Source: Cytophagales bacterium
GTDB taxonomy: Bacteria; Bacteroidota; Bacteroidia; Cytophagales; Cyclobacteriaceae
Length of the DNA: 64,000 nucleotides
Direction: 5' to 3'
NCBI GenBank assembly: GCA_017303805.1
Contig: JAFLBQ010000005.1
Coordinates: forward strand, 248,001-312,000
Part shown: positions 16,770 to 22,477 of the stretch, one piece after another
Layout of the letters: every line of letters starts with the position of its first letter
Position numbering within the stretch: the stretch's first letter is position 1
Made by a program: the position numbers and the translations under genes
The notes under the pieces: model-generated
Told to the model about the DNA's origin: nothing
Database searches by the model: none
What the model saw: only the letters and a program-made list of their open reading frames with translations

Positions 16770-16793
16770 TAGGGATTGAGTAAAAATTATTAT

Positions 16794-16816
16794 AAGGGAA
16801 CCTCGGGTTCCCTTTT
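16794..16816 (+). terminator. Terminator after tsf
   Basis: AAGGGAACC (16794-16802) pairs with GGTTCCCTT (16806-16814) around TCG, followed by a short TT. The stem is strong but the T-tract is weak. Confidence 0.75.
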
Positions 16817-16866
16817 ATGTTTCTGGCTTTTGATAGATATTTGTTGAACACACTAATAGCACGAAC

Positions 16867-16988
16867 TATGAAGCTTGTATTTTAAATTCAACCACCACAC
16901 TGATTTCATACCGAAATCTGGTTGAATTGCCGGTTGGGTACCGCAGCGTAACCCACAAGTCTAGTTAAATACAAGATTACACTTCATA
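16867..16988 (+). ncRNA. Candidate three-way-junction RNA structure in the MATE leader
   Basis: Four nested or adjacent stems can form at once. TATGAAG (16867-16873) pairs with CTTCATA (16982-16988). CTTGTATTT-t-AA (16874-16885) pairs with TTAAATACAAG (16965-16975). ATTCAACCA (16886-16894) pairs with TGGTTGAAT (16919-16927) and encloses GATTTC/GAAATC (16902-16907 / 16913-16918). TGGGTAC (16935-16941) pairs with GTAACCCA (16948-16955) with one bulge. The closed structure ends 15 bases before the MATE start codon, so it could act as a leader riboregulator. It could equally be a small palindromic mobile element. No known riboswitch class is recognised. Confidence 0.5.
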
Positions 16989-17003
16989 CTTTATTCATTC
17001 TTC

Positions 17004-18413
17004 ATGAAAAATCTTTTTTCGAGAGCAGGTTCGGTGTTCAAACTTATAAAAGAAGCCATACTGGGTGTTGAGCAAGACTTTACGAGTTTAAGTCTCAATA
17101 AGGCCATTTTTCTGCTGGCCATACCTATGGTGGTAGAAATGGGTATGGAATCCATTTTTGCGGTAGTGGATATTTATTTTGTTAGCCAATTAAACGATAG
17201 CAATGCGGTAGCAGCCGTGGGTTATACCGAGTCGATACTCAGCATTTTGTATTCGCTGGCTATGGGTTTGGGCATGGGCGCCACTGCCATTGTAGCCCGC
17301 AGAGTTGGTGAAAACGACAGGGCCGGGGCCAGTGTGGCTGCCGTGCAAGCTATTTACCTGGCTATAGGCGTTGCCTTTGTAATCAGCACCATAGGTATAT
17401 TCTACTACAAAGAAGTATTGTTGCTTATGGGCGCATCGCAGGCTGTGGTAGATTCCAGTGGTGGCTATGCGTTTTGGATGTTTGCCGGTAATTACACCGT
17501 TACGTTTTTGTTTTTAAACAATGCCGTGTTCCGCGGTGCCGGTAATGCTGCCATAGCCATGAAGGCTTTGTTGTTAGCCAACGGATTAAATATGATACTT
17601 GATCCGCTCTTCATATTTGGCTTTAAGTTTATACCGGCTATGGGTGTAGAAGGCGCTGCGATAGCTACCAACATGGGCCGGGGGGTAGGCGTATTATTTC
17701 AATTGTATTATCTGCTGCGGGGTAAAAGTTTAATTCAGATTAACTGGAATAATCTTGCTGTGCGGGCCAACATTATTCTTAATGTTATTAAGGTTTCCGG
17801 TGGAAGTATCCTTCAATTTATTATCGGCTCAGCAAGCTGGATTTTTCTAATGCGGGTAATGTCCACCTTTGGCGATAATGCAGTGGCCGGTTATACCATT
17901 GCCATCCGGGTATTTATTTTCACATTATTGCCCTCGTGGGGGCTTGCCAATGCTGCGGCTACATTGGTTGGGCAAAACCTGGGCGCCAGGCACCCCGAGC
18001 GGGCCGAAGCCGCAGTGTGGCGATCGGCTTACTACAATGCATTTTTTATGGGATTTGTGATGATTATTTTTCTGGTGTTTGCACCGGATATCATCACCAT
18101 TTTTAGTCAGCAACCCGAAGTGTTGCAATATGGAACCCAGGCTTTGCGCTACGTTAGTTTAGGCTACATTTTTTATGGGTACGGAATGGTAGTGGCTCAG
18201 GGCCTGAATGGCGCAGGCGATACCTACACGCCTACCATATTAAACGTTTTTGGTTTTTGGGTATTTCAGATCCCGTTTGCCTACCTGGCTGCCATCCATT
18301 TTGGATTGGGTGCCAGGGGCGTTTTTCTTGCCATTGTGTTGGCAGAAACCTTAATGGCGATTGCTGCAATTATTATCTTTAAAAGAGGTAAGTGGAAAGA
18401 GGTTAAGATTTAG
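17004..18413 (+). CDS. MATE family efflux transporter
   Basis: This 469-aa inner-membrane exporter of the MATE (NorM/DinF) family moves cationic drugs or metabolites out in exchange for Na+ or H+. Twelve hydrophobic helices can be placed in two halves. Each half begins with the family pattern (LAIPMVVEMGMESIFAVVDIYFVSQL in the first; VSGGSILQFIIGSASWIFLMRVM in the second). GAGNAAIAMKALLLANGLNMILDPLFIFG and ALRYVSLGYIFYGYGMVVAQGLNGAGDTYTPT are further signatures. The substrate is unknown. It is preceded by a foldable leader and followed by tandem repeats. Confidence 0.93.
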   Translation: MKNLFSRAGSVFKLIKEAILGVEQDFTSLSLNKAIFLLAIPMVVEMGMESIFAVVDIYFVSQLNDSNAVAAVGYTESILSILYSLAMGLGMGATAIVARRVGENDRAGASVAAVQAIYLAIGVAFVISTIGIFYYKEVLLLMGASQAVVDSSGGYAFWMFAGNYTVTFLFLNNAVFRGAGNAAIAMKALLLANGLNMILDPLFIFGFKFIPAMGVEGAAIATNMGRGVGVLFQLYYLLRGKSLIQINWNNLAVRANIILNVIKVSGGSILQFIIGSASWIFLMRVMSTFGDNAVAGYTIAIRVFIFTLLPSWGLANAAATLVGQNLGARHPERAEAAVWRSAYYNAFFMGFVMIIFLVFAPDIITIFSQQPEVLQYGTQALRYVSLGYIFYGYGMVVAQGLNGAGDTYTPTILNVFGFWVFQIPFAYLAAIHFGLGARGVFLAIVLAETLMAIAAIIIFKRGKWKEVKI

Positions 18414-19839: not shown

Positions 19840-19869
19840 TTTGCGGGTAGCATATAATTGCTAATTTTG
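19840..19869 (+). promoter_or_regulatory. Promoter of the nqr operon
   Basis: TTTG (19840-19843), an 18-base spacer and TAATTTTG (19862-19869) fit the Bacteroidetes consensus. The predicted start near 19876 leaves a short leader of about 27 bases before nqrA. Confidence 0.65.
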
Positions 19870-19902
19870 CCCGGTCTAAAACTAAATTATTGCCAATTAC
19901 AC

Positions 19903-21267
19903 ATGGGCAAATTTATCCGATTAAAGAAGGGCTTCACTATCAATCTGCAAGGCAAAGCAAGCCCTAAAGTTGTTGAAGCCGAACAGCCTGAAACATTTGT
20001 AATTAAGCCTACCGATTTTCACGGTATTTACATGCCCAAACCGGTGGTGGAGGTGGGCGATAACGTAAAAGCTGGTAGCCCCTTATTCCACGACAAGAAA
20101 AACGAGCGCATCGTGTTTACCGCACCCGTTAGTGGCGAGGTAGTAGAAGTAAAGCGTGGCGAAAAGCGCAAGCTGCTCGAAATAAAAATCCTTGCCGACA
20201 AGGCCGTAGAATTCGTAGCGTTCAAAAAGCATTCTGTATCAGACATTCAAAATCTGAATGCCACCGAAATAAAGGAGCAGTTATTACAATCAGGAGTTTG
20301 GACCACGCTGGTGCAACGTCCGTTTGGTGTAGTAGCCGATCCGGCAGCCACTCCAAAGGCTATTCACATCTCCGCATTTGATACCCACCCGCTTGCCCCC
20401 GATTACAACATCTTGTTCAAAGGGCAAGATCATTACTTTCAGGTTGGTGTAGATATTCTTAAAAAGTTAACCAGCGGCAGTGTGCATGTAAATACCCATG
20501 CCACCAGCGAAATCTCAACTGTATTTTCGCAGGTTAAAGGTGCCGAAGTAAATAAATTTAGCGGGGTACATCCTGCAGGTTGTGTGGGAGTGCAAATTCA
20601 TCACATCGACCCGATTAATAAAGGCGATGTAGTTTGGACGATTAGCCCTCTAGGGGTAATTCAGATTGGCAAGCTCTTTTTAAATGGTGTGTACGATACT
20701 TCGCGCATTGTTGCCTTGGTGGGTTCTGAAGTTAAGAATGCCCAATATTACAAGACCTATACAGGGGCATCGGTAAAGAAGTTTATTGAAGGAAACCTGA
20801 ACCAGGAACACGTGCGGGTAATCTCCGGAAACCCCTTAACCGGCACAGCCATTGGTAAAGACGGCCACCTTGGTTTTTACGATCATCAACTTACAGTATT
20901 GCCAGAGGGCGATCAGTATGAGTTTTTAGGATGGATTACTCCCACTACAAAAAAGATTAGTTTTCATCGGGCCCTGGGTCTGCTTTCGTTTCTGGCGCCC
21001 GGTAAAGAACGTGTGGCATCTACCAACACCCATGGAGAGCCGCGGGCATTTGTGCAAACCGGAGTGTTTGAACAAGTAACGCCAATGGACATTCTGCCAA
21101 CACACTTATTGAAAAGTATTCTGGCAGAAGACATAGACGAAATGGAAGCCCTTGGTATTTACGAAGTAATTGAAGAAGACCTCGCGCTGTGCGAATTTGT
21201 AGATGTATCCAAACACAAAGTGCAGGAGATTTTGCGCGAAGGCCTTGAGTTAGTTCAAAACAGTTAA
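19903..21267 (+). CDS. nqrA: Na+-translocating NADH:quinone reductase subunit A
   Basis: NqrA is the cytoplasmic subunit of the Na+-pumping NADH:quinone oxidoreductase, which oxidises NADH, reduces quinone and exports Na+. The 454-aa protein starts MGKFIRLKKGFTINLQGKA. It contains HPAGCVGVQIHHIDPINKGDVVW, ISGNPLTGTAIGK and the C-terminal region PMDILPTHLLKSILAEDIDEMEALGIYE, all family hallmarks. I place the start at the ATG at 19903; upstream codons are noncoding leader and promoter. It is the first gene of nqrABCDE, 10 bases ahead of nqrB. Confidence 0.96.
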   Translation: MGKFIRLKKGFTINLQGKASPKVVEAEQPETFVIKPTDFHGIYMPKPVVEVGDNVKAGSPLFHDKKNERIVFTAPVSGEVVEVKRGEKRKLLEIKILADKAVEFVAFKKHSVSDIQNLNATEIKEQLLQSGVWTTLVQRPFGVVADPAATPKAIHISAFDTHPLAPDYNILFKGQDHYFQVGVDILKKLTSGSVHVNTHATSEISTVFSQVKGAEVNKFSGVHPAGCVGVQIHHIDPINKGDVVWTISPLGVIQIGKLFLNGVYDTSRIVALVGSEVKNAQYYKTYTGASVKKFIEGNLNQEHVRVISGNPLTGTAIGKDGHLGFYDHQLTVLPEGDQYEFLGWITPTTKKISFHRALGLLSFLAPGKERVASTNTHGEPRAFVQTGVFEQVTPMDILPTHLLKSILAEDIDEMEALGIYEVIEEDLALCEFVDVSKHKVQEILREGLELVQNS

Positions 21268-21277
21268 TTCGGTTGCA

Positions 21278-22477
21278 ATGAAGTTTTTGAGAAACCAACT
21301 AGATAAAGTAAAGCACAGCTTTGAGAAAGGCGGCAAGCTTGAAAAGTATTATTACGCCTTCGAAGCTATTGATACGTTTTTGTTTGCACCCAACACGACC
21401 AACGACAGTAAAGGTTCGCAGATACGCGATGCGGTTGACTTGAAACGGTTAATGATGACGGTAATTATTGCCATGGTGCCCTGCCTGCTATTTGGTATCT
21501 ATAATGTAGGTCATCAACACTTTTTGGCGATTGGCCAACCCGGTGCTGCCTTGGGTGAAAAGATTGGGATTGGATTGTGGCAAGTGCTACCGATTGTAGT
21601 AGTCTCTTATGGCGTGGGCCTCGGAATTGAATTTGTGTTTTCCATTCTGCGCAAGCACCCGGTAAACGAGGGCTTCTTAGTAACTGGTATGTTAATACCC
21701 TTGGTAATGCCTCCGGATATTCCGCTCTGGCAAGTAGGCGTAGCTACCGCCTTTGCCGTAGTAATTGGTAAAGAAGCATTTGGCGGCACCGGCATGAATG
21801 TAGTGAACGTGGCATTAACTGCCCGCGCCTTCCTCTACTTTGCTTATCCAACTGATATTTCGGGTGGTGTGTGGACTTACCTTGGCGATAGCCAAGCTGT
21901 AGCCGGATATTCAGGAGCTACACCATTGGCGGTTGCTGCCGAAGCAGTAAAAGGCCAGCAAGTTGTGGCGGCACTCAATACGTTTGGCAGCGGTTGGAAT
22001 GAAGGTGTGTTTACACTTCAAAATCTGTTTATCGGACTAAGGCCCGGCTCTATTGGCGAAACCTCTACACTGATGTGCCTGGTAGGCGCATTTATTTTAA
22101 TAGTTACCGGAACAGGCAGTTGGAAAATTATTGTTAGTGTTTTTGGAGGTGCGTATGCTATGGCGTTGTTATTAAACCTGATTGGAGGTTCGCCTTTTAT
22201 GGAATTGCCGGCCCACTACCATTTGGTAATAGGTGGTCTTGCCTTTGGGGCAGTGTTTATGGCCACCGATCCGGTAACGGCAGCCCAAACCGAAAGCGGC
22301 AAATGGGTATATGGAATTTTAATTGGCGTGCTTACAGTGCTCATCCGCGTATTTAACCCGGCTTACCCCGAAGGCATTATGTTGGCAATACTGTTAATGA
22401 ATGTATTTGCTCCCCTTATTGATTATTTTGTAGTAAGTGCAAACAAAAAAAGAAGAATACAACGTGCGACAATCTAA
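21278..22477 (+). CDS. nqrB: Na+-translocating NADH:quinone reductase subunit B
   Basis: NqrB is a membrane subunit carrying covalent FMN and riboflavin and forming part of the Na+ path. The 399-aa protein has about ten hydrophobic helices. The FMN is attached through a phosphoester to the threonine of an SGAT motif, visible as AGYSGATPLAV at about residue 215. LLNLIGGSPFMELPAHYHLVIGGLAFGAVFMATDPVTAAQTESGKW is the strongly conserved late block. Its 3' end overlaps the start of nqrC. Confidence 0.96.
   Translation: MKFLRNQLDKVKHSFEKGGKLEKYYYAFEAIDTFLFAPNTTNDSKGSQIRDAVDLKRLMMTVIIAMVPCLLFGIYNVGHQHFLAIGQPGAALGEKIGIGLWQVLPIVVVSYGVGLGIEFVFSILRKHPVNEGFLVTGMLIPLVMPPDIPLWQVGVATAFAVVIGKEAFGGTGMNVVNVALTARAFLYFAYPTDISGGVWTYLGDSQAVAGYSGATPLAVAAEAVKGQQVVAALNTFGSGWNEGVFTLQNLFIGLRPGSIGETSTLMCLVGAFILIVTGTGSWKIIVSVFGGAYAMALLLNLIGGSPFMELPAHYHLVIGGLAFGAVFMATDPVTAAQTESGKWVYGILIGVLTVLIRVFNPAYPEGIMLAILLMNVFAPLIDYFVVSANKKRRIQRATI

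Follow-up and report, generated by a model that had tools for sequence, protein, structure and literature searches.

The window (the whole 64,000-nucleotide stretch analysed here) carries, on its forward strand, tsf (EF-Ts, PF00889 match) followed by a gene for a MATE family efflux transporter, with a structured element between the two (Table 1). The downstream gene had been called a MATE efflux gene in the original prediction, and its profile matches bear this out. At the 5′ edge of the element lies a five-codon leader ORF (MKLVF*), which that prediction missed. Because a terminator-like hairpin follows tsf, the MATE gene is probably transcribed from a promoter of its own. The -7 promoter consensus is TAnnTTTG, and motifs resembling it score 5 or 6 of 6 upstream of the leader in 52 of 71 related loci (37.7 expected), standing 18–25 nt from the leader ATG in 30 of those 52. 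Two minor features concern the neighbouring genes. In one relative (L007), the EF-Ts encoded by tsf has LPAGQAG inserted in frame, which may be a GC-rich palindromic repeat that is translated. At window positions 19858–22477, a pair of ORFs looks, on reading, like the beginning of an operon for a Na+-translocating NADH:quinone reductase.

Table 1. Features between tsf and the end of the MATE gene, in window coordinates.
Feature	Position	Strand	Basis
Likely tsf terminator, hairpin GGGAACC..GGTTCCC then TTTT; parts tsf from the MATE transcript	16791..16817	+	inverted repeat I1; terminator role inferred from T-run
Putative -7 promoter element GATATTTG, differs from TAnnTTTG at one base	16836..16843	+	sequence
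Outer stem 5′ strand TATGAAG, contains leader start codon; window-specific	16867..16873	+	pairs with 16982–16988; not kept in alignment of relatives
Leader ORF ATG AAG CTT GTA TTT TAA (MKLVF*)	16868..16885	+	conserved ORF; synonymous changes in relatives
P1 5′ strand (leader ORF codons 3–5)	16874..16882	+	pairs with 16967–16975; compensatory UA to GC and GC to UA in relatives
P2 (16885–16894/16919–16928) with inner P2a (16902–16907/16913–16918)	16885..16928	+	folding; pairing in relatives
Homologue of conserved P3 (CGGT/ACCG), loop unlike the relatives' common GGTTAYGCACC	16931..16943	+	covariance-model alignment
Stretch matching the pseudoknot strand and P4 of relatives; in the window both are degenerate	16944..16966	+	alignment
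P1 3′ strand AAATACAAG, ends 28 nt before MATE start codon	16967..16975	+	folding; inverted repeats; alignment
Outer stem 3′ strand CTTCATA, 15 nt from MATE start codon	16982..16988	+	folding; inverted repeats
MATE family efflux transporter, presumed regulated gene	17004..18413	+	TIGR00797 240.4 bits (cut-off 147.4); PF01554

When positions 16860–16995 were folded, the forward strand reached -33.4 kcal/mol versus -20.1 kcal/mol for shuffled sequences (z -4.4, with 0 of 200 as good) and the reverse strand gave z -2.5. The stems named in the original prediction were all present. P1, 9 bp in the window, is the core of what had been described as a stem of 11 bp with one bulge, and the third hairpin, of 7 bp, falls within 16932–16953 and is not the homologous P3. 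The element occurs once in its own genome, the next best match being 17 nt long (E 0.145).

The junction among relatives

Across 96 relatives, BLASTN matched 17 genomes at E ≤ 0.1, the window's genome included. The 5′ arm (window 16860–16897) was 89–94% identical in six genomes of the same genus (E < 1e-5), each time between tsf and MATE; ten more matches were weak (E 0.012–0.092), and the three of these that were inspected (L008–L010) lie in unrelated places. A covariance model built from seven sequences was searched in 62 genomes of the genus and found the element in 14, once in each and in every case directly before the MATE orthologue, as expected of the structured cis-acting leader that had been proposed for this gene. 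The gene on its 5′ side was tsf itself in 8 of the 14, tsf with an intervening ORF in 1 (L044) and a histidine-kinase/LytTR-type regulator pair, annotated by reading ORFs, in 5. Since the upstream genes differ, the element travels with MATE and not with tsf. At L043, L045, L046, L047 and L048, MATE follows an apparent histidine-kinase/LytTR-type response-regulator pair, not tsf.

The conserved core comprises P1 (8 modelled pairs), P2 with P2a, P3, P4 and a pseudoknot of four pairs, in which GGAC or AGAC in the P2 internal loop pairs with GTCC or GTCT downstream of P3. Most relatives are accordingly modelled as a four-way junction with a pseudoknot, so the three-way junction of the original prediction stands for the stems present in the window and not for the conserved form. 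In an alignment of 14 sequences that was itself fitted to the covariance model, the 31 pairs were standard in 92.5% of cells versus 74.9% after shuffling, and in 24–48% once one strand was slid. Changes on both sides of a pair filled 70 cells versus 22 in shuffled alignments, some of those in P2 arising because two subgroups are offset by one base in register. Compensatory changes in homologous leaders, which the original prediction had named as support for a riboregulator, are present. In P1, 6 sequences have GC or GU in place of UA and 2 have UA in place of GC; P2 and P2a were paired in 99% and 93.5% of cells, and the P3 loop GGTTAYGCACC was exact in 6 of 14 sequences with near-matches in most others. 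The same loop, with one change, also occurs in another genus (L136). The pseudoknot was paired in 91.8% of cells with a covariation of 0.301 versus 0.211 shuffled (0 of 500), and both-side changes occurred in only two of its pairs, a count reached in 48 of 500 shuffles. From the P1 3′ strand to the MATE start, the distance was 27–32 nt in all 14 rows, with that of L037 taken from the upstream region of a near-twin. The window's own copy is the odd one out: it keeps 8 of 8 P1 pairs, 1 of 4 in the pseudoknot and 0 of 3 in P4, and has lost the latter two. The junction is nonetheless real, and in a subgroup it is under selection.

The spread of this fold was assessed with a junction model (R2). 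In 390 genomes of the order, searched with strict filters and 9 candidates scored per genome, it gave two matches, both within the genus, and with filters on it matched 8 of 27 named loci with MATE relatives. With filters off, 17 weak matches were obtained in the 35 genus loci outside the 14, the best at L099 (30.5 bits, E 0.0009); L094, L123 and L116 matched near E 0.01 under the same setting. Some of these weak matches may reflect the leader ORF instead of the junction. The best of 21 family loci, also with filters off, was L136 (26.2 bits, E 0.008), and 10 further loci gave nothing better than E 1.3. No known class had been recognised in the original prediction, and likewise no Rfam family covers the element: the only sub-threshold hit there was CrcZ (8.1 bits, E 5.7), and the sole match of one Rfam scan was a tRNA away from it. 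A search of the open-access literature found neither the leader nor the junction.

The leader ORF and its pairing

In the other 13 junction copies, the leader reads MKLVF, MKFVF, MILVF, MILVY or MILLF with TAA at codon 6. The ORF outlasts the junction among MATE relatives, as MKLTF, MKLMF, MKLLF, MIVLF, MIFVF, MFLIF and others, and in longer forms such as MKSFILFILA. To count these, MATE upstream regions were taken from the genus genomes (58 of 62 had a match) and from other genera of the family; of the 86 loci (L076–L161), 6 were set aside (no in-frame ATG was found in five, and one lay too near a contig end) and 1 duplicated another upstream region, leaving 79. Among the 62 distinct loci with at least 55% local identity (identities for L106–L133 cover short N-terminal stretches), an ORF of 3–26 codons was found at -85 to -160 in 60 (27.3 expected) and one of exactly five codons in 40 (2.3 expected, with a maximum of 8 in 200 shuffles); the loci are related, so these counts are not independent. 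The 17 loci at 50–55% identity gave one five-codon ORF versus 0.96 expected and any such ORF in 14 versus 9.3. For MATE relatives outside the family, taken from a class search, the five-codon ORF was found in 0 of 24 loci (1.26 expected) and any ORF in 15 versus 12.0 expected, three further loci having been dropped because no start codon was found. Short ORFs were seen by eye in a few of the outside-family loci (L163, L165, L186).

The ORF is conserved as a coding sequence. When distinct five-codon ORFs were joined in a minimum spanning tree, its edges held 55 changed codons, of which 26 were synonymous, versus 0.20 on average under random substitution (0 of 2000 trials); the other two frames gave 12 of 51 and 10 of 54. 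A short upstream ORF under coding selection, the mark of a leader-peptide attenuator, is thus found here. For the analyses that follow, 71 leaders were picked by hand, none being accepted in L127, L129, L130, L131, L132, L140, L146 and L155, of which L129–L132 are paralogues at 48–49% identity. Their stops were TAA in 55, TGA in 10 and TAG in 6.

Across the 71 loci, the segment from -8 to +22 of the leader ATG pairs with the 45 bases preceding the MATE start better than it does with their dinucleotide-shuffled versions (z -8.2, 0 of 100), and with the last 30 bases z was -7.8. The excess was seen at every level of MATE identity (at least 70%, z -3.2, 22 loci; 55–70%, z -5.9, 37 loci; below 55%, z -2.7, 12 loci), and the same leaders against their own upstream 45-mer gave z 0.5. 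Pairing was significant at single loci in 16 of 71 for the region -45 to -1 and 24 of 71 for -30 to -1, with only 2 of the 22 loci of at least 70% identity at p ≤ 0.05. A partner-swap control, in which 11 of 71 fell in the best 5% versus 3.6 expected, was modest and is confounded by shared leader sequence. In raw energies, far-upstream 45-mers bind the leaders as strongly as the start region does (-10.31 versus -10.22); we read this as a composition effect, and composition-keeping shuffles were therefore used. Striking pairings between leader and start region occur in L137 (CATGAAGTTA/TAACTTCATG, ending beside the start codon), L156, L115 and L142. These results point to a pairing of leader and start region that is selected across the family, and it is weakest in the window's group. 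The short ORF with its pairing is more widespread than the junction.

We used an energy model to estimate the cost of opening the MATE start when the end of the leader is blocked. The mean cost fell from 8.14 to 6.96 kcal/mol (p 2e-4, 71 loci), a larger effect than when the block was moved to another site (p 0.002, 49 loci); it dropped by at least 2 kcal/mol in 20 of 71 loci and rose by at least 1 kcal/mol in 6 of 71. In the 14 loci of the window's structural group, the cost rose in 8, stayed the same in 1 and fell in 5, with drops of at least 1 kcal/mol only in the window (7.6 to 6.3 kcal/mol) and L091 (6.4 to 5.4 kcal/mol). Sequestration of the start region was considered for this group and is not supported by the energy model. 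The end of the P1 3′ strand keeps a constant spacing, yet lies upstream of the usual ribosome footprint. Given this spacing and a leader block that, in the window's group, does not ease opening, any effect of P1 on expression is presumed.

Probable control of the MATE gene

Coding and pairing are both conserved, and the element is linked to MATE. Since conservation of the leader ORF extends to its codons and reaches further than the junction does, we read the element as an attenuator that controls MATE by sensing ribosomes, with a probability of about two in three; the pump is probably controlled through the ribosome's reading of a tiny leader gene. Under this model, a presumed promoter after the tsf terminator would yield a transcript that starts shortly before MKLVF*. 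The leader codons would form the 5′ strand of P1, whose 3′ strand lies some 30 nt ahead of the MATE start codon, and in many relatives the leader would pair instead with the bases right before that start. A ribosome at codon 5 would cover P1 and the foot of P2, so one held at the leader's end would melt both and change MATE expression, the stalling and the direction of the effect being presumed. The most likely holding agent would be a drug, or some other condition, under which short hydrophobic peptides of the M-x-L-x-F-stop kind are poorly synthesised or terminated, as happens with MsrDL.

Control could also depend on the leader without freeing the MATE start, through attenuation of transcription (intrinsic or by Rho), through mRNA stability, or through re-initiation, for which the junction would place the leader stop close to the MATE start. 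We consider this a weaker candidate, with a modest chance of being right. It would explain why the start becomes no easier to open in the window's group when the leader is blocked and why P1 ends about 30 nt short of it, and hairpins resembling terminators, with T-runs, can be seen by eye between leader and MATE in L089, L092 and L099. By eye, however, the window's group shows no T-run hairpin between P1 and MATE, and the pairing of leader and start region is selected across the family, both of which tell against this route.

The original prediction had leaned towards a riboswitch, efflux genes being frequent riboswitch targets, but this is not supported as the likeliest class. Were it one, the four-way junction with its pseudoknot would be the aptamer for a metabolite, and the leader ORF would be incidental or a second layer. 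The conserved pseudoknotted fold is indeed more elaborate than an attenuator needs, and the P3 loop recurs, once outside the genus as noted above. However, the junction stands before the MATE genes of one genus, with one weak match elsewhere, whereas other MATE orthologues keep the ORF where the junction model is weak or absent; the window itself retains the ORF and P1 with the pseudoknot and P4 lost, and Rfam gives no match. With a codon-conserved ORF that is wider spread than the junction favouring an attenuator, we regard a riboswitch as unlikely, although the junction may yet act as a small-molecule aptamer; a covarying junction before an efflux gene need not be one. A mobile palindromic repeat, the main alternative raised in the original prediction, would suit an imperfect palindrome of this length, which folds on either strand, but is highly improbable and was rejected, since the element has a single copy in its own genome, the genus matches are one per genome and all 14 take the same position ahead of MATE, not unrelated loci, and the leader ORF is conserved at the codon level.

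Comparison with other leader peptides

The peptides encoded by the putative attenuator share a motif. Among 40 hand-picked pentapeptides, position 3 is L or I in 33 and position 5 is F in 32, with both in 28 and TAA in 30; among the 23 distinct ones, the two positions are so occupied in 16 and 15. The window's MKLVF-TAA has the features that define an MsrDL-type sequence (short, hydrophobic, L/I at 3, F at 5, UAA). MsrDL (MYLIFM, UAA) is described as stalling with erythromycin through a block of termination, L3 adjoining the cladinose and F5 hindering release factors (PMC10314930). The same source gives Leu or Ile at position 3 as a requirement of erythromycin-resistance pentapeptides, and such peptides are reported to need a length of four to six residues (PMC2928234). 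By analogy, a macrolide-like drug or another that acts on the peptidyl transferase or tunnel could hold the ribosome at codon 5. We know of no tie between this MATE gene family and macrolides.

The leader resembles msrDL of msrD in being very short and hydrophobic, in its UAA, L3 and F5, and in preceding an antibiotic-resistance gene (PMC10314930). It differs in having five codons, no sixth residue and no Tyr2, and the M-x-L/I-x-F likeness is one of resemblance, not kinship. Further, msrDL is described as controlling a streptococcal ABC-F gene by transcription attenuation with an intrinsic terminator (PMC10314930), whereas the present gene encodes a MATE pump in Cyclobacteriaceae and no terminator was seen in the window's group. 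Erythromycin-resistance pentapeptides are alike in their four to six residues and L/I at position 3, and are described as library-selected and acting by ejection of the drug from the ribosome (PMC2928234, PMC10314930); in contrast, the peptide here is the conserved genomic leader of a pump gene. As described for the translation attenuators of ermC and tetQ, the latter from Bacteroides and so of the same phylum, the translation state of a leader sets an RNA fold that controls the start of a resistance gene (PMC5418344), which is what we propose here. Unlike these, the gene is a pump gene, and the window's group has a pseudoknotted four-way junction and an occlusion of the start that the energy model does not support. 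Another pump gene leader, bmrB, is a larger leader gene. It is described as acting by transcription attenuation on the BmrCD multidrug ABC pump of Bacillus, a transporter of a different class (PMC4191407).

Tentatively, and as a possibility short of likely, we suggest that the family runs an ancestral MATE pump with natural leaders resembling resistance pentapeptides (M-x-L/I-x-F-stop), in which termination and not elongation would be the drug-sensing step, and that the intervening RNA was rebuilt between lineages, once into the pseudoknotted four-way junction. If so, these leaders would be nature's equivalent of the macrolide-resistance pentapeptides selected in the laboratory. If the attenuator reading itself is right, leader-peptide attenuation would extend to a MATE pump and to Cyclobacteriaceae, and the 23 distinct natural pentapeptides could be used to learn which short nascent chains sense which drugs. 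It would also be an attenuator whose coding leader persists while its RNA architecture differs by lineage.

Longer leaders were also noted. A second class, of ten codons (MKSFILFILA and variants), precedes the same MATE gene in L087, L089, L090, L092, L103, L104, L106 and L133; these loci have different hairpins, some terminator-like, and the ten-codon leaders showed no excess of synonymous changes (4 of 15, 538 of 2000 trials). In L100, L101 and L111, leader ORFs of 12–23 codons contain GC-rich hairpin-like sequence (e.g., CACCGGC..GCCGGT), and from this they look as if they were sites of a palindromic insert. Among more distant family members (L148, L149, L157, L158, L159), the leaders have 13–16 codons and end in Cys-stop (e.g., MKLIAVISRTRFC*).
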